Part shown: positions 51,778-63,754 of the stretch, in pieces
Position numbering within the stretch: the first letter of the stretch is position 1
Layout of the letters: each line of letters begins with the position of its first letter
NCBI GenBank assembly: GCA_946554445.1
Contig: CAMNSD010000001.1
Coordinates: forward strand, 180,411 to 244,410
Direction of reading: 5' to 3'
DNA from: an uncultured Lachnospiraceae bacterium
GTDB lineage: Bacteria > Bacillota > Clostridia > Lachnospirales > Lachnospiraceae
DNA: 64,000 bases
Notes under the pieces: generated by a model
Told to the model about the DNA's origin: nothing
The model's database searches: none
What the model saw: the letters and a program-made list of their open reading frames with translations, nothing else
Program-made: the position numbers and the translations under genes

Positions 51778-52923
51778 TTACATGCACTCCATTAAAATAT
51801 CATAAACCTCATCCCTGCCAAGTTCGCGGGGATTGCATTTGATAATATTGCAGGTATCCGCTACCTTACACAGCACCTCAGGCGAGATTTCCGTCTTCGA
51901 CCGCAGTTCACCCATTTTGGTCGGGAGTCCGCACTCCTTTATAAAATCGCTGAGTGCCTGTACCCCCTCCTCGGCTGTATCTTTACCAAATACAGTTCTT
52001 GCAAACCGCTCAAATTTTTCTTCCGCATCCTTCAGAATATGGCGGTAATAGGCGGGATGGATCACCGCAAGTCCCTGTCCGTGATTACAGTCCGTAAATG
52101 CGCCGAGCTGATGCTCAATCTGGTGTGCCTGAAAGTCCGTAACCCTGCCGGCTTTTAGAATACCGTTCTCCGCCATAGCAGAATCCCACATCAGATTGCT
52201 TCTCGCCTGCATATCATTTACATCTGCAAGCAGACGGCGCATATTGACCACGGTGTTGCGCATGACAGCTAACGCCAAGTCATCAGAAACATTGTCCCGA
52301 TCGGAATTGCCAAGATAGGTTTCCATCGCATGGCTCAGTGTATCAAAAGCGCCGGAAATCACCTGCATTGCAGGAACGGAAGCCGTCAGTTCGGGATCAA
52401 GTACCGCAAAAGAAGCATATGCGCCAAACACACCGGTCTTAATACCTTTTTCCTCATTAGTAATGACTGCTCCGCAGTTCTGTTCGGCTCCTGTGCCGGA
52501 AGCGGTGACCACCGCCCCCATTGGCAGATACTCCGCAGGGAATTTTCCCTCCGAAAACTCCATTTCCCAGATATCCTTGTCAGTCTTTGCCTGTGCTGCT
52601 ATGATCTTGCAACAGTCAATAACAGAGCCTCCGCCTACCGCAAGGATAAAGTCCACGCCCTTTTCTTTTGCCAGCACCGCGCCCTCTTGTACCTTAGCAT
52701 AAGTAGGATTGGGCATAATACCCGAAAAATCTACAACCTCCTTTCCTTCCTTTGCAAGCAACTCCTTCACCCTGTCATAAATGCCATTCTTCTTTAGGGA
52801 AGCGCCGCCATAGGCAAGCATCACTGTCTTTCCATACTGATTTAACTCCGTATGGAGCGCCTTTTCCAAAGAATCCTTCCCGAAATATACTTTTGTGGGA
52901 TACGTGAAAACAAATTCGTTCAT
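51778..52923 (-). CDS. Iron-containing alcohol dehydrogenase (intact metal site)
   Basis: A 381-residue group III dehydrogenase, butanol-dehydrogenase-like. Cofactor region LAVGGGSVIDCCKIIAAQ; metal ligands are intact: Asp and His in GAFDTLSHAMETYLG, His in AHQIEHQLGAF and His in TDCNHGQGLAVIHP. It would interconvert alcohols and aldehydes with NAD(P)H. AGGAGG precedes the start. Its close paralogue at 57182-58351 has lost two of these ligands. Confidence 0.93.
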   Translation of the reverse strand: MNEFVFTYPTKVYFGKDSLEKALHTELNQYGKTVMLAYGGASLKKNGIYDRVKELLAKEGKEVVDFSGIMPNPTYAKVQEGAVLAKEKGVDFILAVGGGSVIDCCKIIAAQAKTDKDIWEMEFSEGKFPAEYLPMGAVVTASGTGAEQNCGAVITNEEKGIKTGVFGAYASFAVLDPELTASVPAMQVISGAFDTLSHAMETYLGNSDRDNVSDDLALAVMRNTVVNMRRLLADVNDMQARSNLMWDSAMAENGILKAGRVTDFQAHQIEHQLGAFTDCNHGQGLAVIHPAYYRHILKDAEEKFERFARTVFGKDTAEEGVQALSDFIKECGLPTKMGELRSKTEISPEVLCKVADTCNIIKCNPRELGRDEVYDILMECM

Positions 52924-53976: not shown

Positions 53977-54045
53977 GTATAAACAAACCAAGACCTCAAA
54001 AGAAGTCTCGATTTGTTCATCAGTTTATACTTTAAGGTTATAACC
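53977..54045. repeat. Hairpin element, copy B of three
   Basis: AAACCAAGACC and GTCTCGATTT pair with two mismatches on the plus strand but as two G-U pairs in a minus-strand RNA. TTGTTCATCAGTTTATACTT and AAGGTTATAAC follow. It overlaps the track end of the broken esterase, and lies directly upstream of the aldo/keto reductase transcript. Confidence 0.85.
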
Positions 54046-54076
54046 CCATCCTGTATTCCGCTTTGCCGCACTTCTC

Positions 54077-54456
54077 TCATTTCGAAAACAGCCAGCCCAT
54101 GATTTCTTCATCATACGCAAAAAGACCACCACCCCGTGCTCATTCGACATATTTCTTTCCGTGAAGTAATCATGCTCCTTTATATCCAGTACCAACAGCT
54201 TATCTATTTCATCATCGGACAGCCCCTGCTGTTCATATAAGGCATGGAGCGTGTCATAAGCCTCCTGTGTTGGTTCCGAACCATAGTATTCATCGTTCCT
54301 GCCAATGGCAAGATAGACCGGCAGTCTTTGCTCTGCAACCGGCCCATACGCTCCGTCCCACTGGGAGCTGACCTGCATATATGCTGTAAACAGATCCGGT
54401 CTCTTTCCCATCACAATCGACACGGTTTCCCCGCCACCGGAATATCCGTTTCCGTT
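54077..54456 (-). pseudogene. Frameshifted remnant of an esterase (C-terminal part)
   Basis: The minus-strand frame reads GYSGGGETVSIVMGKRPDLF, a nucleophile elbow, then SSQWDGAYGPV and DEYYGSEPTQEAYDTLHALYE, ending KEHDYFTERNMSNEHG. One base short in a G run (about 54132-54135) sends the frame into unrelated sequence; restoring it gives GGGLFAYDEEIMGWLFSK and a stop at 54077-54079. The N-terminal half of the hydrolase is missing; instead the cupin gene runs into it in another frame. It is clearly a decayed gene. Confidence 0.8.
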
Positions 54457-54995
54457 CCTTCTGTAACATACCCCACTCCGCTTTCCTTCTGCCCGGAATC
54501 TCCTTCTATTTGGTGATAACCAATTCCATCCGTAGTTATCAATATCTGCCCGCCCTCATGGATATGCCAGTTACTGATTACCCCAGTATTAAACACTACA
54601 TAATGAAGATCAGGAGCTCCGGCCGCATTGTTATCCCCTATAATGGTTGAAACATATGCCGGACCACTAAATGTATCAGAAGTCAATAGTCCCTCGGCTT
54701 TGGGAAACATAAACGACTGTTTCTCCAATGTTGTTGCGCGTTCCTGATATTCCTCTGTTTCCAGATTCGCATAATACTCATCTGTAACGGATAAATGATA
54801 TACATCGTCATTTGCAATCATCGACGCCAGATATGCCGTTCCTGAAAAACTATCGGAACGGATCGCCTGACCAATCGGAAAAGTTATTTCTTCCGCGCCG
54901 CCCGCCGTTTCATGATTACCTGCTGCATTCCCGCAGCCTGTCATGCAAAAAACCGCTGTAACCAATACTATTCCTGCATATAATAATTTTTTCAT
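54411..54995 (-). CDS. Cupin lipoprotein, C-terminus replaced by esterase-derived sequence
   Basis: About 194 residues. Lipobox CMTGCGNAAG, then two related halves: SDSFSGTAYLASMIANDD and SDTFSGPAYVSTIIGDNN. The second continues LHYVVFNTGVISNWHIHEGGQILITTDGIGY with the cupin HxH-Glu-like metal motif. After GDSGQKESGVGYVTEG the frame is esterase-derived DNA read in the wrong frame (DIPVAGKPCRL), so the second cupin motif is lost. The first half is a truncated duplicate without a metal site. The protein may be nonfunctional. Confidence 0.65.
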   Translation of the reverse strand: MKKLLYAGIVLVTAVFCMTGCGNAAGNHETAGGAEEITFPIGQAIRSDSFSGTAYLASMIANDDVYHLSVTDEYYANLETEEYQERATTLEKQSFMFPKAEGLLTSDTFSGPAYVSTIIGDNNAAGAPDLHYVVFNTGVISNWHIHEGGQILITTDGIGYHQIEGDSGQKESGVGYVTEGTETDIPVAGKPCRL

Positions 54996-55106
54996 AATCT
55001 GTTCCGTCCGTTCTCCGGTTTTGCTTTCAGACCACAAGATTTATAATCTTCGTGGCAGGCCCAGTGATCGCACACTGCACTAACCTCTGCCTCATCCCCC
55101 TTTGTT

Positions 55107-56388: not shown

Positions 56389-57168
56389 TTACAAATCCAG
56401 GCTTTCCACCCATGCCTGAACCGTTTCCTCGGAGGCGCTGGAGGCAAATCTTGCTCCCTCCAGCCAGTCTCCTGTTCCGGCTGCTTCCGCCAGCAATTCA
56501 CCACTCTCGCCCAGATCAGAACTGGATGAAGTGCAGAACGGAATTACTGTCTTTCCCGTAAAATCATTCGCCGCAATAAAGCCGTCTACCGGCCATGCCG
56601 CGATATGCCACCAGATGGGATAACCGATAAACACCGTATCATAAGACTCCCAATTATCGACGGCAGCTGAAACCAGTTCTACATTTCTTTCATCCTCATT
56701 TTCATGCTCTCTGGTCACACGGCTATTCTTGTCCGTCCAGTCCAAATCATCACTGCTATACGGTTCTACCGGTTCCAGTACAAAAGTATCGGCATCTGTT
56801 GCTGCAGCAATGTAGCCTGCCACACTTTCCGTATTCCCCGTTGCTGAATAGTAAACAACCAATGTCTTTCCACCTTCCGTAGACGATTGATCCGTATTCT
56901 CTGCCGAGATATCCGTACTGTTTTCCGCCTGCTGTTCTGTCTGGCCTGTCGTTTCCTGCCCAGCCCGTGCCTCATCCGACTGATTTCCCGTTCCCTTCTT
57001 TGACAGCGCAGGTGATTCCGGTGTATTTTCCGGCATCACATCTCCTCTTTCCTGACGGGTTTCCGGAGTATTGCTCCCGCTGTGCCGACTACCGCACGCT
57101 GTAAGGCTTGCGGCCAGAATCATTCCTGTTAATAGAGCCATTGCTTTCTTCATCATTTTCTTTCTCAT
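56389..57168 (-). CDS. Lipoprotein-anchored flavodoxin
   Basis: About 259 residues. Lipobox SLTACGSRH, a low-complexity linker of about 100 residues, then a flavodoxin domain: LVVYYSATGNTESVAGYIAAAT (FMN phosphate loop) and YDTVFIGYPIWWHIAAWPVDGFI, CTSSSSDLGESGELL. Most flavodoxins are cytosolic, so an anchored one must obtain FMN outside, or have it inserted before export. AGGAGG precedes MRKKMMKK, 13 bases after the dehydrogenase stop. Confidence 0.85.
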   Translation of the reverse strand: MRKKMMKKAMALLTGMILAASLTACGSRHSGSNTPETRQERGDVMPENTPESPALSKKGTGNQSDEARAGQETTGQTEQQAENSTDISAENTDQSSTEGGKTLVVYYSATGNTESVAGYIAAATDADTFVLEPVEPYSSDDLDWTDKNSRVTREHENEDERNVELVSAAVDNWESYDTVFIGYPIWWHIAAWPVDGFIAANDFTGKTVIPFCTSSSSDLGESGELLAEAAGTGDWLEGARFASSASEETVQAWVESLDL

Positions 57169-57181
57169 AATGTTCTCCTCC

Positions 57182-58351
57182 TTAATAGCATTCCTGAAAA
57201 ATTTCAAAGATTTCCTTGTGCGTCATTTGCTTATAGCTTCCGGCAGAAAGAATACAGGAATCCGCTATCTGCTTCAAATCCGTATTCTCGTCCACCCCTA
57301 TATCACGAAGCGTGACAGGAAGACCGACTTCTTTAATAAACCCAGCCAGTGCTTCCACTCCTTCACAGGCTGTTTCCTCCTCCGTCTTACCCAAGCCCGA
57401 AACTCCCCATACATTAACAGCAAACCTTTTGAACTTGGCACGGCCATTCCTGTATATATGACGATAGTAAACAGGATGCAGTACGGCAAGCCCCTCCCCC
57501 TGATTACAGTCTGTATAAGCAGCAATCTGGTGTTCCATCTGATGACACTGGAAGTCCGTCTGCTTCCCCAATTTCAGGATACGGTTTTCTGCCATTGCTG
57601 CATCCCATATCAGATTACTTCTAGCTGTATAATCCTTTGGATTTACAATAGCTGCCCTTAAGTTTTGTATGACGCTTTTCATCAGAGCCTCTGCAATGTC
57701 ATCAGACACATTATCCTCATCGGGTTTGCTGAAATAAATCTCCATAATACGAGACAGTGTATCAAAACCGTCTGACACCATCTGCCTTCTTGAAACACTG
57801 CAGCTATATACAGGATCAATCAATGCAAATCTGGGATTGCATTTGGGATAATCACGCCCCGTCCTGACCTTCAATGCTTTATTCGTGATGACAGCCTTTC
57901 CATTCACTTCGCTTCCTGTTTCCGGTTCCGTAACAACAGCGCCAAGTGGAACCGGATCAAAATCCATAATGCCGTGTCTTGCAAAAAAATCTTTCCAGAG
58001 ATCGCCGCCATAGACCGCAGCCATAGAAACGGCTTTACAGCAGTCCATTACGCTTCCGCCCCCAACGGCAAGGATAAAATCAATTTTATTTTCCTTTGCC
58101 AGTTTTGCGCCCTCCTGCACTTTTTCATAAGTTGGATTTTCACAAATGCCTGAAAATTCAAACACATTCTTTTCCGCTTGTGTAAGGCTCTCTATGATTT
58201 CATCATAAATACCATTATTTTTGATGGAATCTCCGCCATAACCAAACATTACATTTTTTCCATAATGTTTTACAAGGCAGGCCAAATATTCTTTTACGCA
58301 TCCCTTCCCGAAATATGTCTTAGTGGAATTTTCATAAATAAAATTGTTCAT
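57182..58351 (-). CDS. Iron-type alcohol dehydrogenase paralogue with degraded metal site
   Basis: A 389-residue paralogue of the dehydrogenase at 51778-52923. Cofactor block FILAVGGGSVMDCCKAV is intact. Two of four metal ligands are changed: Asp-Thr-Leu-Ser-Arg (DTLSRIMEIYF) where His is expected and CNQGEGLAVLHP where CNHG is expected; codons CGT and CAG were read directly. The other His (CHQMEHQIAAY) stays. So it may bind metal poorly or have another role. It is the first gene after hairpin copy C. Confidence 0.9.
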   Translation of the reverse strand: MNNFIYENSTKTYFGKGCVKEYLACLVKHYGKNVMFGYGGDSIKNNGIYDEIIESLTQAEKNVFEFSGICENPTYEKVQEGAKLAKENKIDFILAVGGGSVMDCCKAVSMAAVYGGDLWKDFFARHGIMDFDPVPLGAVVTEPETGSEVNGKAVITNKALKVRTGRDYPKCNPRFALIDPVYSCSVSRRQMVSDGFDTLSRIMEIYFSKPDEDNVSDDIAEALMKSVIQNLRAAIVNPKDYTARSNLIWDAAMAENRILKLGKQTDFQCHQMEHQIAAYTDCNQGEGLAVLHPVYYRHIYRNGRAKFKRFAVNVWGVSGLGKTEEETACEGVEALAGFIKEVGLPVTLRDIGVDENTDLKQIADSCILSAGSYKQMTHKEIFEIFQECY

Positions 58352-58411
58352 ACCATACCTTCCCTGTCAGTGCTGCATTATTATCTGTAAATTTTCTGCT
58401 TTCCCTTAGTA

Positions 58412-58477
58412 TAAAAAAATCGAGGCTTCTAAAGAAGTCTCGATTTGTTCATAAGTTTATACTTTTAGGTTACAACT
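58412..58477. repeat. Hairpin element, copy C of three
   Basis: AAATCGAGGC and GTCTCGATTT pair with one G-T; TTGTTCATAAGTTTATACTT and AGGTTACAAC follow. It lies between the lysR stop and the dehydrogenase, the third copy to precede a transcription unit of this region. Confidence 0.85.
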
Positions 58478-58489
58478 TCGTTGTGCCTT

Positions 58490-59377
58490 TTATAATACTT
58501 TTTGCAATGCTGACAAGAATTTCTTTACGGTTGCCGACGGTTCACGGGAATGCAAGAGTCCATAAGGAATAGAATAATCCCATTCAACAGGAATCACTTT
58601 TAATAAAGGATGGACATTATCCCAAACCGAAACTGCCATCAGCACATCATTTCCATTCTCACAGCGGTTAAACACATCCACATTGTAAAAATCAAAATCC
58701 ACAATATGTATCTGGCTGTGGTTCTGCCAAATATCATCGCGTAATCTATCCACATAATGGCTCCAGTCACGATGCATCATCAGCAGGTTCTCCCCATACA
58801 AATCCTGAATCGCAAGTTTACTCTTATCTGCAAGACGATGGTGGATGGATACCGCACAGCACAATGGCTGTTCAAAAAGTTCAAAACCCGCACACTGGCG
58901 CAGGTTCAGCATTGTTTCATCAAAAATCCCTGCCACCACATCAATATTCTGCCCAAGGTTCTTCAGTATTTCCCTTGCATTTTCCGGGGTGTTTTCAAAG
59001 GGAACCAGCTGGAACTTGATCTCTGGGCACAAAGCATGTATCTGTGGCCAGAGTTCCACCAGAACCTGCGCAGGCGTCATCGGTGATGTGCCGATACGGA
59101 TAATGTCTGTGTTTTCCTGCATGGCATTTTTCGCCCATATCACGGAATCCCTGCAATACTGGATAATGTATTTTGTATCTTTATAAAGGGAACTGCCTGC
59201 TTTTGTCAAAGAAAGCCCCCTATGTGTTCTTTCAAAAAGCTGTACTCCTAAATCAGCCTCCAGCAGATTGATCTGTTTTAGGACCGCCGTAGGTGTAATG
59301 TATGCCTGTTCTGCCGCCTTATTAAAACTTCCAGCATCTGCAACACGGATAAATGTTTCCAGTTGTAGATTATACAT
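58490..59377 (-). CDS. LysR-family transcriptional regulator
   Basis: A 295-residue regulator. The winged helix is LETFIRVADAGSFNKAAEQAYITPTAVLKQINLLEADLGVQLFERTHRGLSLTKAG; the ligand-binding domain follows (IRIGTSPMTPAQVLVELWPQ). It is the first gene of the region and the only regulator near, so it probably controls the redox genes; the three hairpin elements are candidate sites. Divergent neighbours are only the mobile remnant, so its own promoter lies in the AT-rich stretch upstream. Confidence 0.92.
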   Translation of the reverse strand: MYNLQLETFIRVADAGSFNKAAEQAYITPTAVLKQINLLEADLGVQLFERTHRGLSLTKAGSSLYKDTKYIIQYCRDSVIWAKNAMQENTDIIRIGTSPMTPAQVLVELWPQIHALCPEIKFQLVPFENTPENAREILKNLGQNIDVVAGIFDETMLNLRQCAGFELFEQPLCCAVSIHHRLADKSKLAIQDLYGENLLMMHRDWSHYVDRLRDDIWQNHSQIHIVDFDFYNVDVFNRCENGNDVLMAVSVWDNVHPLLKVIPVEWDYSIPYGLLHSREPSATVKKFLSALQKVL

Positions 59378-59934: not shown

Positions 59935-60756
59935 TCACTTGGCATCACCTCCCGGAAGCTGCTTAAGTCCTTCCATGCTGACGATAGCAAGCATCTTCAT
60001 CTGCTTAACCGCAAATTCTCTGAGCAGAACTAAACGTTCCGACATCGCCTTTCCCTGTTCAATCAGAATTGCGTTGTAACTTTCCATATTTGCAAGAACA
60101 AGAAGCTGATTTAGGTTTGCCTCATCACGCATATTGCCTTGCTTGCCCGGATTGCTGTCCCTCCATTGCTTCGCTGTTCTGCCAAACAATGCGACATTTA
60201 AAAGATCGGCTTCGTTGGCATATTTGTATGAAATCTGCTCCGGCGTAAGCTCCGGCGGTATCAGATTGTCTTTGATTGCATCAGTATGGATGCGATAATT
60301 CAGCTTGGCTATCTCACGATTAAGATTCCAGTTAAGAGAAAGACGGCTGTTTTCATCAGACTTCAAACGCTGATAATCCTTTATGATATATAACTTAAAC
60401 TCTGGCGAAATCCAAGATGCAAACTCAAACGCTATATCAATATGAGCATAAATACCTCCGCCATATCTTCCTGATCTTGTCAACAAACCAATTGCACCCA
60501 GCACTTCCGTCCACTCCTTTATCGAAAATACATATGCATTTGATCCCGCATCTTTTTTAAACTTATCGAATTCGATAAGTTTAAAATTCGGATTGTGCAA
60601 TCTCTCCCATAATCCAAGGAACTCAATAACGTCTCGTCCGCGCAGCCAGTTATGAATAGTAATTGACGGCTGTATACTCTTATATTTTGCTATGTCTGTC
60701 AAAGAAATAAACTCGTTCTTAAAATCCGTTGTATAGATACCAATATCAATACCCAC
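59935..60756 (-). CDS. KilA-N domain protein
   Basis: A 273-residue protein. FKNEFISLTDIAKYKSIQPSITIHNWLRGRDVIEFLGLWE and YGGGIYAHIDIAFEFASWISPEFKLYIIKDYQRLK form the KilA-N DNA-binding domain of phage and plasmid proteins; the C-terminal half carries LNVALFGRTAKQWRDSNPGKQGNMRDEANLNQLLVLANMES. A GTG start is used; no ATG is available in frame. Such proteins are often element-borne antirepressor-like regulators. It overlaps the recombinase tail fragment by eleven bases. Confidence 0.82.
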   Translation of the reverse strand: MGIDIGIYTTDFKNEFISLTDIAKYKSIQPSITIHNWLRGRDVIEFLGLWERLHNPNFKLIEFDKFKKDAGSNAYVFSIKEWTEVLGAIGLLTRSGRYGGGIYAHIDIAFEFASWISPEFKLYIIKDYQRLKSDENSRLSLNWNLNREIAKLNYRIHTDAIKDNLIPPELTPEQISYKYANEADLLNVALFGRTAKQWRDSNPGKQGNMRDEANLNQLLVLANMESYNAILIEQGKAMSERLVLLREFAVKQMKMLAIVSMEGLKQLPGGDAK

Positions 60757-60972
60757 TGCGTGAATAGTCTCTTTTTTTCATGATTGATGACATTTGTTTG
60801 GTAATTAGTTTTATAGCTTCCTCAATCTTTTCCTTAGCAATTTGCACATCTTCATTAATTTGAAGCTTACATTTCTCATCCACTGGTCCGTTCAAACCAG
60901 ACATATCCTCCAACGAAAAGTCAACCCTTATCTTTTTCGACTGGATTTCTCCCTTGGAAAGCAAGACACACC
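60746..60972 (-). pseudogene. Out-of-frame C-terminal tail of the serine recombinase
   Basis: This frame reads CVLLSKGEIQSKKIRVDFSLEDMSG, typical of the end of large serine recombinases in Lachnospiraceae, where the recombinase frame gives unrelated CLAFQGRNPVEKDKG. A one- or two-base shift near 60960-60972 explains both. A further 40 residues do not match the usual tail. Confidence 0.7.
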
Positions 60973-62624
60973 GTCTTAACATGCTTATCATCTTCCAAAC
61001 TCAAATTCATATCTTCCTCAATAATCGGAAGCTTGAATTTAATGGATTTTAGCCACTGTCCATTTGGCTGTCTGTTCTCATATATCTGTATTTCGGAAAT
61101 TAATGCTTCCATAAGCTGCCGCCGCTCTGCTTCATTCATCACAGCATACAGCTTTTCAAAATAAATCAATACCTTATAGATATTATCTCCCGTCAATTTT
61201 TCAGCTTCAACTGCCTGCTTCTTTGCCCTTGTTTCAATAAGCTGTGTTTCCACATTCTCTATTTTATCATACATTCGATAGAGCCTGTCATCAAGGTCTG
61301 CTTTCCGTTTGATATAATGTCTGTCATCCGGATCAAGAGAATCAATTTCCTCCGCCAGCTTTAGCTTGACGGCATAATATTGCCGCAACTGATTTTCATT
61401 TGACGCTAGTTCTCCGTCTATTGCAGCAGTATCCACTTTGCTGTTAATCTTCTTCTGCATCATGGCAGCAAACTTAGGATTACCTACTAACTTTACGATA
61501 ACTTCCGCCACCGCATCGTCCAATAATTCCTCCCGCACCTGCTTTTTATAATCGCACTTATGCCCGCGCGTCATGGTACGGTGCTTGCATCCATAGTAAT
61601 AAAAGTCTTTATACTTTGTCCCATCCTTTTTGCGCTTGATGCTCTTATTGCCATACATGCCCGCGCCGCAGACCGGACACTTGACGATTCCCGAAAGAAG
61701 ATGCGTTTTTGTGTCTTTACCTCTGTTTACATGTTCGTTTTTTTTCGCCTGTGCGAGCAGCTTTACCTGTGCCATCTGCCAGACATCTTCCGCAACAATA
61801 GCTTCATGCAGTCCGTCCACAAGAATATAATTATCCTGCTCCACAAGATGATACTCGTTTCGTGTTCCATGAACTTTTTCTGTCTTTCTGCGTCCATAAG
61901 CAATTTTACCGCAATATACCGGATTTTTCAGAATAAGGCGAACCAAGTGCGCATCAAAAAGAGGATTTTTCCCGTTCTGCCTCTGTATCTTGTGAATGCC
62001 GTGATTCTCAAGATATTTTGCCACGCCGTTGGCGCCGATGTCAGTTGTCACATACTGCTCAAAAATGACACGGATAGCGGCTGCTTCTTCCTCGTTAATC
62101 TGAAGTTCTCCATCCACAAGCTGATAGCCGTATGGCGCAAACCCGCCGTTCCATTTTCCCTCGCGGGCTTTCTGGATACGCCCCTCCATTGTCTGCACAC
62201 GGATATTTTCCCTCTCAATTTCCGCAACCGCCGACAGGACAGAAATCATCAACTTACCTGCATCTTTGGAAAAATCAATGCCATCCTCCACGCAAATCAA
62301 GTTTACACCAAAATCCTGCAAAACCTGCAATGTAGAAAGTACGTCCGCCGCACTTCTGCCAAATCTGGACAATTTAAAAACAAGGATAAATGAAACACCG
62401 TCTTTCCCTGATTTGATATCCTCCATCATACGGTTAAACTCCAATCGCCCCTCAATGGACTTGCCGGATTTTCCAACATCCCCATATGTGCTGACAATTT
62501 CATACTCATTATAGTCGGCATATGCTTTCATTCGGGCCTTCTGTGCGTCTAAGGAATAACCATCTGTCTGCATAGCTGTAGATACTCTTGTATATGTATA
62601 AACCTTGATTTTTTGTCCTTTCAT
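60921..62624 (-). CDS. Large serine recombinase, C-terminus frameshifted
   Basis: About 567 residues. The resolvase domain starts KVYTYTRVSTAMQTDGYSLDAQ, with the nucleophile serine in RVST; FKLSRFGRSAADVL and MISVLSAVAEIERENIRV follow. The recombinase domain and zinc ribbon (VKCPVCGAGMYGNKS, YYYGCKHR, HKCDYKK) are intact, then a coiled coil. TGGAG lies before the ATG, 16 bases after the RhuM stop. It should catalyse integration or excision of the element, but the last 15 residues are out of frame. The core is intact, so activity is possible. Confidence 0.88.
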   Translation of the reverse strand: MKGQKIKVYTYTRVSTAMQTDGYSLDAQKARMKAYADYNEYEIVSTYGDVGKSGKSIEGRLEFNRMMEDIKSGKDGVSFILVFKLSRFGRSAADVLSTLQVLQDFGVNLICVEDGIDFSKDAGKLMISVLSAVAEIERENIRVQTMEGRIQKAREGKWNGGFAPYGYQLVDGELQINEEEAAAIRVIFEQYVTTDIGANGVAKYLENHGIHKIQRQNGKNPLFDAHLVRLILKNPVYCGKIAYGRRKTEKVHGTRNEYHLVEQDNYILVDGLHEAIVAEDVWQMAQVKLLAQAKKNEHVNRGKDTKTHLLSGIVKCPVCGAGMYGNKSIKRKKDGTKYKDFYYYGCKHRTMTRGHKCDYKKQVREELLDDAVAEVIVKLVGNPKFAAMMQKKINSKVDTAAIDGELASNENQLRQYYAVKLKLAEEIDSLDPDDRHYIKRKADLDDRLYRMYDKIENVETQLIETRAKKQAVEAEKLTGDNIYKVLIYFEKLYAVMNEAERRQLMEALISEIQIYENRQPNGQWLKSIKFKLPIIEEDMNLSLEDDKHVKTVCLAFQGRNPVEKDKG

Positions 62625-62639
62625 ACCAAGTACTCCATT

Positions 62640-63632
62640 TTAATTTTTATCTGCCTTTTTACCCAATATTTTTATTGAGTCCAAATAGTCCTGTTCCACA
62701 TCGCTTAAAGTACGCTCTTTATATTTCTTATATTCTCTGGTTGCTTTTTCCACAGCCTGCTTATGCGTCACACTTCCACTCCCTGACAATAACTGTTCGC
62801 CGCTCATTGTTAGAATCCGGTCTAAGTGCTTCGCCCAATCTTCCATGGTCATAGCCTGTTCCCGTTCTGCCTGACGTTCTGCAAAATCCAAATATCCCGA
62901 CACAAGCTGCCCCATTGCACGAAGTTCTTTTTCATCCAGATAGTTTTTAGCAGTGACGGCTTCCCGCAAAGTCGGCTGGTTTCCTGCAAACGTGATAAGC
63001 CCCATAAATTCCTTTTCTGCATCCGCCCTTGTATAAATAATTTCCGCCGCCGTCTGCCCATGAATGGCATAATGAATTTTGTTCTGAACCTTCTGAAAAA
63101 ACTGAATGGATATTTCAGCTTTTGGATCATAGTCAATGCTGGTAGCGTAAATCTCCAATACCTGCCTGTAAAACACCTTTTCAGATGCACGAATATCTCT
63201 GATTCGTTCAAGCAGTTCTTTAAAATATCCACCGCCGCCTAATTTTTTCAAGCGTTCATCATCCAGCGCAAAACCTTTACGCATATACTCTTTCAAAACC
63301 CCGGTCGCCCATATCCTAAACAGCGTGCCTTGTTTTGATTTCACACGATAGCCGACAGAAATAATTACATCAAGATTATAAAATTCTACAGGTTTATCTG
63401 AATTTGTAATGTGCAAAATTTGCACATTACCTTCTCTGGAAAGCTCTCCTTCTTCAAATATATTTTTTATATGTTTTGAAATTACAGAACGGTCTCTCTG
63501 AAATAACTCCGCCATCTGTGCCTTTGACAGCCAGACCGTATCGCCATCAAAGATTGTTTCAATCTTTGATAAGCCGTCCTCTGTTGTATAAATTATCATA
63601 TTTGATTTTCCAATTTCTTCTCTATAATCCAT
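62640..63632 (-). CDS. RhuM-family protein
   Basis: About 330 residues. IIYTTEDGLSKIETIFDGDTVWLSKAQMAELFQRDRSVISKHIKNIFEEGEL and VEFYNLDVIISVGYRVKSKQGTLFRIWATGVLKEYMRKGF match RhuM, a virulence- and phage-associated family with Fic-like or regulatory suggestions but no settled role. GAGG precedes MDYREEIG, dropping 18 codons of the track ORF. It lies ahead of the recombinase, an arrangement also seen in the remnant at 59.5-59.8 kb. Confidence 0.88.
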   Translation of the reverse strand: MDYREEIGKSNMIIYTTEDGLSKIETIFDGDTVWLSKAQMAELFQRDRSVISKHIKNIFEEGELSREGNVQILHITNSDKPVEFYNLDVIISVGYRVKSKQGTLFRIWATGVLKEYMRKGFALDDERLKKLGGGGYFKELLERIRDIRASEKVFYRQVLEIYATSIDYDPKAEISIQFFQKVQNKIHYAIHGQTAAEIIYTRADAEKEFMGLITFAGNQPTLREAVTAKNYLDEKELRAMGQLVSGYLDFAERQAEREQAMTMEDWAKHLDRILTMSGEQLLSGSGSVTHKQAVEKATREYKKYKERTLSDVEQDYLDSIKILGKKADKN

Positions 63633-63754
63633 AGTCACCTCATTATTTGATATTTTCACCAACAATGGTTTGGACACTCTTATCATGTTTTATTATATCT
63701 CTTATAACCATCATTAACAAGACGCATCTTTCAATTTTTCGCATGATTATCTCC

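Follow-up and report, generated by a model that had tools for sequence, protein, structure and literature searches.

We found that the iron-containing alcohol dehydrogenase (Fe-ADH) homologue encoded on the minus strand at 57182-58351 of the window, the whole 64,000-nucleotide stretch of Lachnospiraceae DNA analysed here, is probably a retained pseudoenzyme of the YqhD/YugJ-type Fe-ADH group. Its open reading frame starts with ATG, has no internal stops and encodes 389 aa. Over its full length the product matched both domains of the Fe-ADH superfamily significantly, Pfam Fe-ADH (PF00465; 2.9e-38, 131.5 bits, gathering cut-off 31.3) and ADH_Fe_C (PF25137; 4.1e-29, 102.1 bits, gathering cut-off 27), and its closest solved relatives are YqhD/YugJ/butanol-dehydrogenase-type enzymes. 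In YugJ, the metal is held by Asp194, His198, His267 and His281, His271 touches the substrate site, Lys160 and Gly149 touch the nicotinamide ribose and the nicotinamide, respectively, and the enzyme without metal is inactive (PMC8836905). Because motif and spacing match, we placed these ligands at positions 197, 201, 270 and 284 of the window protein and the substrate His at 274. The window protein reads D-R-H-Q at the four ligand positions, with His at 274 (motifs GFDTLSRIME, FQCHQMEHQ and TDCNQGE). It has the fold and the NAD(P) pyrophosphate motif GGGS of YqhD/YugJ-type group III alcohol dehydrogenases, but not the Asp and three His ligands of the metal-dependent enzymes of this group. The relevant features are as follows:

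57182-58351, minus strand: Fe-ADH-fold protein with a degenerate metal site (D197, R201, H270, Q284; H274 kept; K152; R163).
57749-57751, minus strand: codon CGT for Arg201, where YugJ has its metal ligand His198; position counted from the start codon at 58351.
57500-57502, minus strand: codon CAG for Gln284, where YugJ has its metal ligand His281; position counted from the start codon at 58351.
57908-57931, minus strand: NAD(P) loop, codons 141-148, TEPETGSE (TVAGTGSE in the sister group).
51778-52923, minus strand: Fe-ADH paralogue with intact D-H-H-H, 381 aa, 49% identity to the window protein, part of this redox gene cluster.

A preliminary description had reported the loss of two of four ligands and had quoted the motifs DTLSRIME and CNQG for this protein against DTLSHAME and CNHG for the paralogue, and both observations held in the YugJ numbering. 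The paralogue carries DTLSHAME, FQAHQIEHQ and DCNHG, and its substrate position is also His. Several changes extend that description. The NAD(P) loop of the window protein has Glu in place of Gly144, K152 and R163 occupy the YugJ Gly149 and Lys160 positions, R163 standing in place of a near-invariant Lys, and the same genome holds, on another contig, a second degenerate copy that is 87% identical and has the ligands D-H-R-Q. The two copies of this one genome therefore differ in their second lost ligand (R201 or R270) and share Q284. An AlphaFold2 model of the window protein, built from an input alignment of 33 window and locus sequences, reached a pLDDT of 92.7 and a pTM of 0.91, with a somewhat lower value in block 141-150 (81), and its best PDB match was YugJ with NADP and nickel (TM 0.95, 36% identity). 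The two-domain Fe-ADH fold is predicted to be kept, a prediction that is silent on activity.

Relatives were sampled from the genome contigs and from family, genus, Parablautia-genus and order samples. Ten distinct sequences from Lachnospiraceae gut bacteria formed one clade, with L039 and others being near-identical copies of clade rows that are not counted among the ten. Most members come from metagenome-assembled genomes, and isolates include P. intestinalis D8-82 and IMSAGC_005. None of the ten has all four ligands: the window copy is DRHQ, L002, L040, L041 and L043 are DHRQ, L038, L042 and L061 are DHQQ, L121 is HHQQ and L047 is ARRR. The preliminary description had suggested looking for a subfamily in which Arg and Gln are conserved together, and our alignment did not bear this out. 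Position 284 is Gln in nine of ten rows and Arg in the remaining one, so that His284 is the only ligand loss common to the clade; the second lost ligand varies (R201, R270, Q270, H197, or all four), and we rejected R and Q as joint markers of a subfamily because Arg201 is limited to the window copy and L047. The clade was monophyletic in a tree made without the active-site columns (139-152, 194-204 and 266-287; SH-aLRT 99), with L047 branching first. This sister sequence (L047:1464-2630) has kept none of the four ligands, nor the substrate His, and reads A, R, R, R, D at these positions. Its frame is intact, and the adjoining LysR gene product is 91% identical to that of the window.

Homologues with His at both sites, which had been named as evidence against a new or metal-free role, are absent from the clade but present in its closest outgroups, L044 (Parablautia muri) and L045 (74% identity, both DHHH). 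Since these close outgroups have His at both sites, ligand loss in the clade is derived. The DHHH set was found in 113 of the 118 rows outside the clade. Conserved catalytic residues have thus been lost in an otherwise conserved family, and because no clade member keeps four ligands, the clade proteins are likely metal-free. In this respect the earlier suggestion of a new or metal-free role stands as to the metal; a new role is plausible, and from the sequences a non-catalytic one would fit better than a catalytic one.

Could the altered site be an error, or still hold a metal? Several members derive from metagenome assemblies, yet Q284 and the loop changes recur in independent assemblies, in isolates, in two genera and at both loci of the window genome, which makes a sequencing or assembly artefact barely credible; on this recurrence we rejected sequencing error. 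A rearranged metal site, with fewer ligands or with Gln and water replacing His, could draw on D197, H270 and H274 of the window copy, and glycerol dehydrogenases of the wider superfamily bind zinc through a different ligand set (PMC5125639). However, D197 is gone in the HHQQ and ARRR members and H270 in others, Arg at this site is unfavourable for a cation, and no compensating ligand is fixed nearby, with D194 as a possible exception. We consider a surviving metalloenzyme highly improbable.

The residues that clade members have and DHHH rows never show (142 E/G, 152 K/R, 183 S, 194 D and 284 Q/R) cluster in the pocket. The NAD(P) loop varies among members (TEPETGSE, TEMETGSE, TETETGSE, TETETGSG, TEGQTGSE and AGTGNGSE), and H274 is replaced by Tyr in the DHQQ and HHQQ members. 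All five of positions 197, 201, 270, 274 and 284 are changed somewhere in the clade, compared with 19 of 88 other DHHH-invariant positions (p = 8e-4; p = 1e-4 without L047), and 69 of the 93 DHHH-invariant positions are unchanged throughout. Four of these positions had served to define the DHHH rows. We therefore reran the test on every row outside the clade, at a 95% conservation threshold, and the metal and catalytic positions were again enriched, both for the clade (5/5 versus 19/98 other conserved positions; p = 5e-4) and for the window copy alone (2/5 versus 3/98; Fisher p = 0.018). The window protein is full length with the rest conserved, as had been proposed. Given the changes at the YugJ Lys160 and Gly149 positions (163 and 152), hydride transfer has probably been lost on the cofactor side as well. 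Nearly all clade members retain GGGS, N72, D103 and N150, so partial NAD(P) binding is possible.

These same pocket residues bear on a metal-independent reductase of the maleylacetate-reductase kind, passing hydride to an activated C=C bond or to another substrate that needs no Lewis acid. Maleylacetate reductases of the Fe-ADH superfamily are metal-free, with Asn or Arg replacing the Asp ligand (PMC5125639); the residues that touch the cofactor in YugJ (GGGS, D103, N150) are kept in nearly all members, the window copy retains H270 and H274, and an acidic substrate could bind the new basic residues R201 and K152. In the maleylacetate reductase PcpE, however, neither His172 nor Lys238 can be dispensed with, and the family is recognised by its signature motif LHHKLCHTLGG (PMC5741723). 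The window counterpart is FQCHQMEHQIAA, with Gln at the Lys238 position, and membership of the maleylacetate-reductase type was rejected because this signature with its essential Lys is absent. Moreover, metal-free re-use predicts a conserved new pocket, and the pocket observed is variable: it differs between the two 87%-identical copies (R201/H270 versus H201/R270), H274 gives way to Tyr in the members named above, and Gly144 of the NAD(P) loop has become Glu. We therefore regard a new metal-free reductase as rather unlikely.

Within the clade, dN/dS had a median of 0.080 (range 0.069-0.140; 62 pairs at dS 0.3-1.6, the pairs not being independent), compared with a median of 0.059 among DHHH relatives (176 pairs), 0.042 for the adjacent LysR gene within the clade and about 0.05 for the intact paralogue. 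The ratio of dN to that of the LysR gene was about 2.2 for clade genes, compared with about 1 for the others, for which the LysR gene used was not always directly adjacent. Constraint in the clade is thus somewhat relaxed compared with the DHHH relatives. The simplest history for the members with Q284 in common is divergence from an ancestor that already lacked the ligand, and the protein sequence has accordingly been conserved since His284 was lost; with dN/dS at about 0.08 between them, purifying selection has acted after the loss. Eight of the ten distinct members are full length and two are damaged, by a 1-bp frameshift near codon 310 in Parablautia intestinalis (L061, L013) and by a 21-aa in-frame deletion in Lachnospiraceae bacterium IMSAGC_005 (L043/L137).

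The features next to the Fe-ADH gene are as follows:

56389-57168, minus strand: flavodoxin-fold, lipoprotein-like gene (Flavodoxin_4, 2.5e-39), co-directional with the Fe-ADH gene.
58490-59377, minus strand: LysR-type regulator directly upstream of the Fe-ADH gene, a kept neighbour that is 91-97% identical across the clade.
58402-58455, minus strand: hairpin followed by a U-run, terminator-like, between the LysR and Fe-ADH genes (-16.4 kcal/mol, z -5.1).

The Fe-ADH and flavodoxin genes are probably translationally coupled, because the flavodoxin Shine-Dalgarno sequence AAGGAGGAG overlaps the Fe-ADH stop codon. Slow decay, in which activity is gone and the gene is leaving, still open only because little time has passed or because the flavodoxin downstream is coupled to it, could account for the two damaged relatives and for the raised dN/dS and dN relative to LysR, and with this overlap the open frame alone could be selected. 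However, translation coupling could not by itself select amino-acid conservation, and dN/dS of about 0.08 at dS 0.3-1.6 means that the amino-acid sequence is conserved beyond the frame alone. Furthermore, most members are full length, most invariant positions are unchanged, and in L042 and L047, where a longer gap to the next gene leaves no tight overlap, the Fe-ADH frame is intact all the same. Decay is accordingly unlikely. We rejected a pseudogene as the main reading on dN/dS and intact frames, and the two damaged relatives keep decay as a rival. The earlier judgement that this is not simple decay is supported by within-clade dN/dS of 0.07-0.14, mostly intact full-length frames and kept gene order; as for other clear signs of pseudogenisation, the frameshift and the deletion point to relaxed constraint, and most members are free of them.

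The order LysR-FeADH-flavodoxin is usually kept around clade genes, and at the second degenerate copy the gene order LysR-FeADH-flavodoxin-hydrolase matches that of the window. Throughout Lachnospiraceae, the surroundings are a redox cluster of varying content that includes LysR, flavodoxin, aldo/keto reductase, esterase, CMD and FMN-reductase genes. Because the terminator-like hairpin separates it from LysR, the Fe-ADH-flavodoxin unit probably has its own promoter. This hairpin was spotted by eye and folded separately; a consensus promoter and terminator scan of the sequence gave no more matches than shuffles and did not flag it. Where genomes of the window's genus carry a clade gene, a search at E <= 1e-110 showed no additional DHHH member of the degenerate protein's subfamily, only the 49-50% identical paralogue, and the degenerate protein has therefore replaced the active orthologue.

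Some further observations concern the history of the cluster. A near-identical terminator-like hairpin with its flank (tataaact-atgaacaaatcgagacttctt) occurs at 53978-54032, after a truncated hydrolase, and at 58402-58455, after the LysR gene; since both hairpins and flanks are nearly the same, they suggest a duplication or rearrangement in the cluster's past. At 54025-55037 lie two adjoining open reading frames that resemble a cupin-like lipoprotein gene running into the 3' portion of an esterase gene. Near 54425, reading across the junction in the other frame gives a GYSGGG nucleophile-like motif, and it looks as though a deletion had fused two genes out of frame. A serine recombinase (resolvase family), a RhuM-family protein and a further open reading frame near the contig end lie at 59935-63686, where a mobile element probably adjoins the redox cluster. 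Elsewhere in the same genome, G000 contig C47 (13275-24677; L002, L003) carries a second version of the cluster, with LysR, degenerate Fe-ADH, flavodoxin, hydrolase, aldo/keto reductase and intact Fe-ADH genes.

The sequences show that relatives with the ancestral site are ordinary D-H-H-H Fe-ADHs encoded in LysR-FeADH-flavodoxin clusters. A single Lachnospiraceae clade has lost the fourth ligand, His284 having become Gln (Arg in one member), along with the nicotinamide-loop changes; its remaining ligands were altered differently in each lineage, and purifying selection has preserved the other parts of the protein. As a retained pseudoenzyme, the protein would no longer hold the catalytic metal or pass hydride to aldehydes; because the two-domain fold and the GGGS pyrophosphate motif are kept, part of NAD(P) may still bind. 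Most likely it would assist a different redox protein from this cluster without catalysis of its own, whether as subunit, stabiliser or regulator, with the intact paralogue or the co-translated flavodoxin as first candidates, and a non-catalytic job plausibly fits better than a new catalytic one. These findings advise caution against annotating such genes of gut Lachnospiraceae as active alcohol dehydrogenases.

Ligands have also been lost elsewhere in the wider subfamily: AHRH (L141:1264-2430), AHLH (L111:9001-10164), SNHH (L030:4-918, at a contig edge), DYHH (L059:9001-10164, also L123) and DHHY (L090:3194-4357). Each of these five non-clade losses rests on one or two assemblies, and a second AHRH sequence was not found in the genus of G454. 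They are apparently independent, with one or two ligands lost in each, and parsimony on the tree requires at least six ligand losses. The group of the intact paralogue (44 rows) has none, a contrast that is only suggestive because sampling centred on the degenerate protein. A bolder and improbable extension is that in separate Lachnospiraceae lineages (the window clade and those of the five losses above) the aldehyde-reductase slot of LysR-FeADH-flavodoxin clusters has repeatedly given rise to a partner without catalysis of its own, which binds NAD(P) or an aldehyde and regulates an active paralogue or neighbouring redox proteins. If true, the conversion of an enzyme into a regulator would have recurred within a single operon type.

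Kinase and phosphatase pseudoenzymes are well studied. Among open-access full texts, we found no case pairing a pseudoenzyme with an iron-containing alcohol dehydrogenase, and no open paper with the required numbers on metal-ligand mutants of the Fe-ADH family. As far as our searches reach, pseudoenzymes and metal-free superfamily members are known, and a retained metal-site-degenerate clade within the YqhD/YugJ-type Fe-ADHs is undescribed in open-access papers. Because variants with different broken sites and intact 74% relatives occur in similar genomic positions, the order of loss and the remaining function are directly testable.

The window protein shares the fold, full length, GGGS, Asp197 and His274 with the butanol dehydrogenase-type Fe-ADHs Bacillus subtilis YugJ, E. 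coli YqhD and T. maritima TM0820 (7w9y, 1oj7 and 1vlj), and the redox neighbourhood with aldo/keto reductases is alike. Unlike these enzymes, it has R201, Q284, the loop TEPETGSE, K152 and R163. Maleylacetate reductases (cd08177; GraC, PcpE) belong to the same superfamily and also do without metal (PMC5125639), but in these the Asp ligand is lost and a basic pocket and LHHKLCHTLGG are conserved (PMC5741723), whereas in the window clade the motif is absent and the pocket variable. According to a citing paper, the Fe-ADH-like ErcA of Pseudomonas takes part in the regulation of ethanol utilisation (Hempel et al. 2013, cited in PMC12997753), and as cited there it offers a precedent for an Fe-ADH homologue in a regulatory role. 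The gene neighbourhood of the window protein differs from that of ErcA, and the match to NCBIfam NF041833 (ErcA; 6e-38, 130.9 bits) marks a distant relative; we rejected membership of the ErcA family because the score lies far under the equivalog cut-off of 550 bits. Finally, the trypanosome AdoMetDC prozyme (PMC5201418) differs in fold from the window protein, but prozyme-type dead paralogues are, as is probable here, catalytically dead homologues kept by selection beside active relatives.
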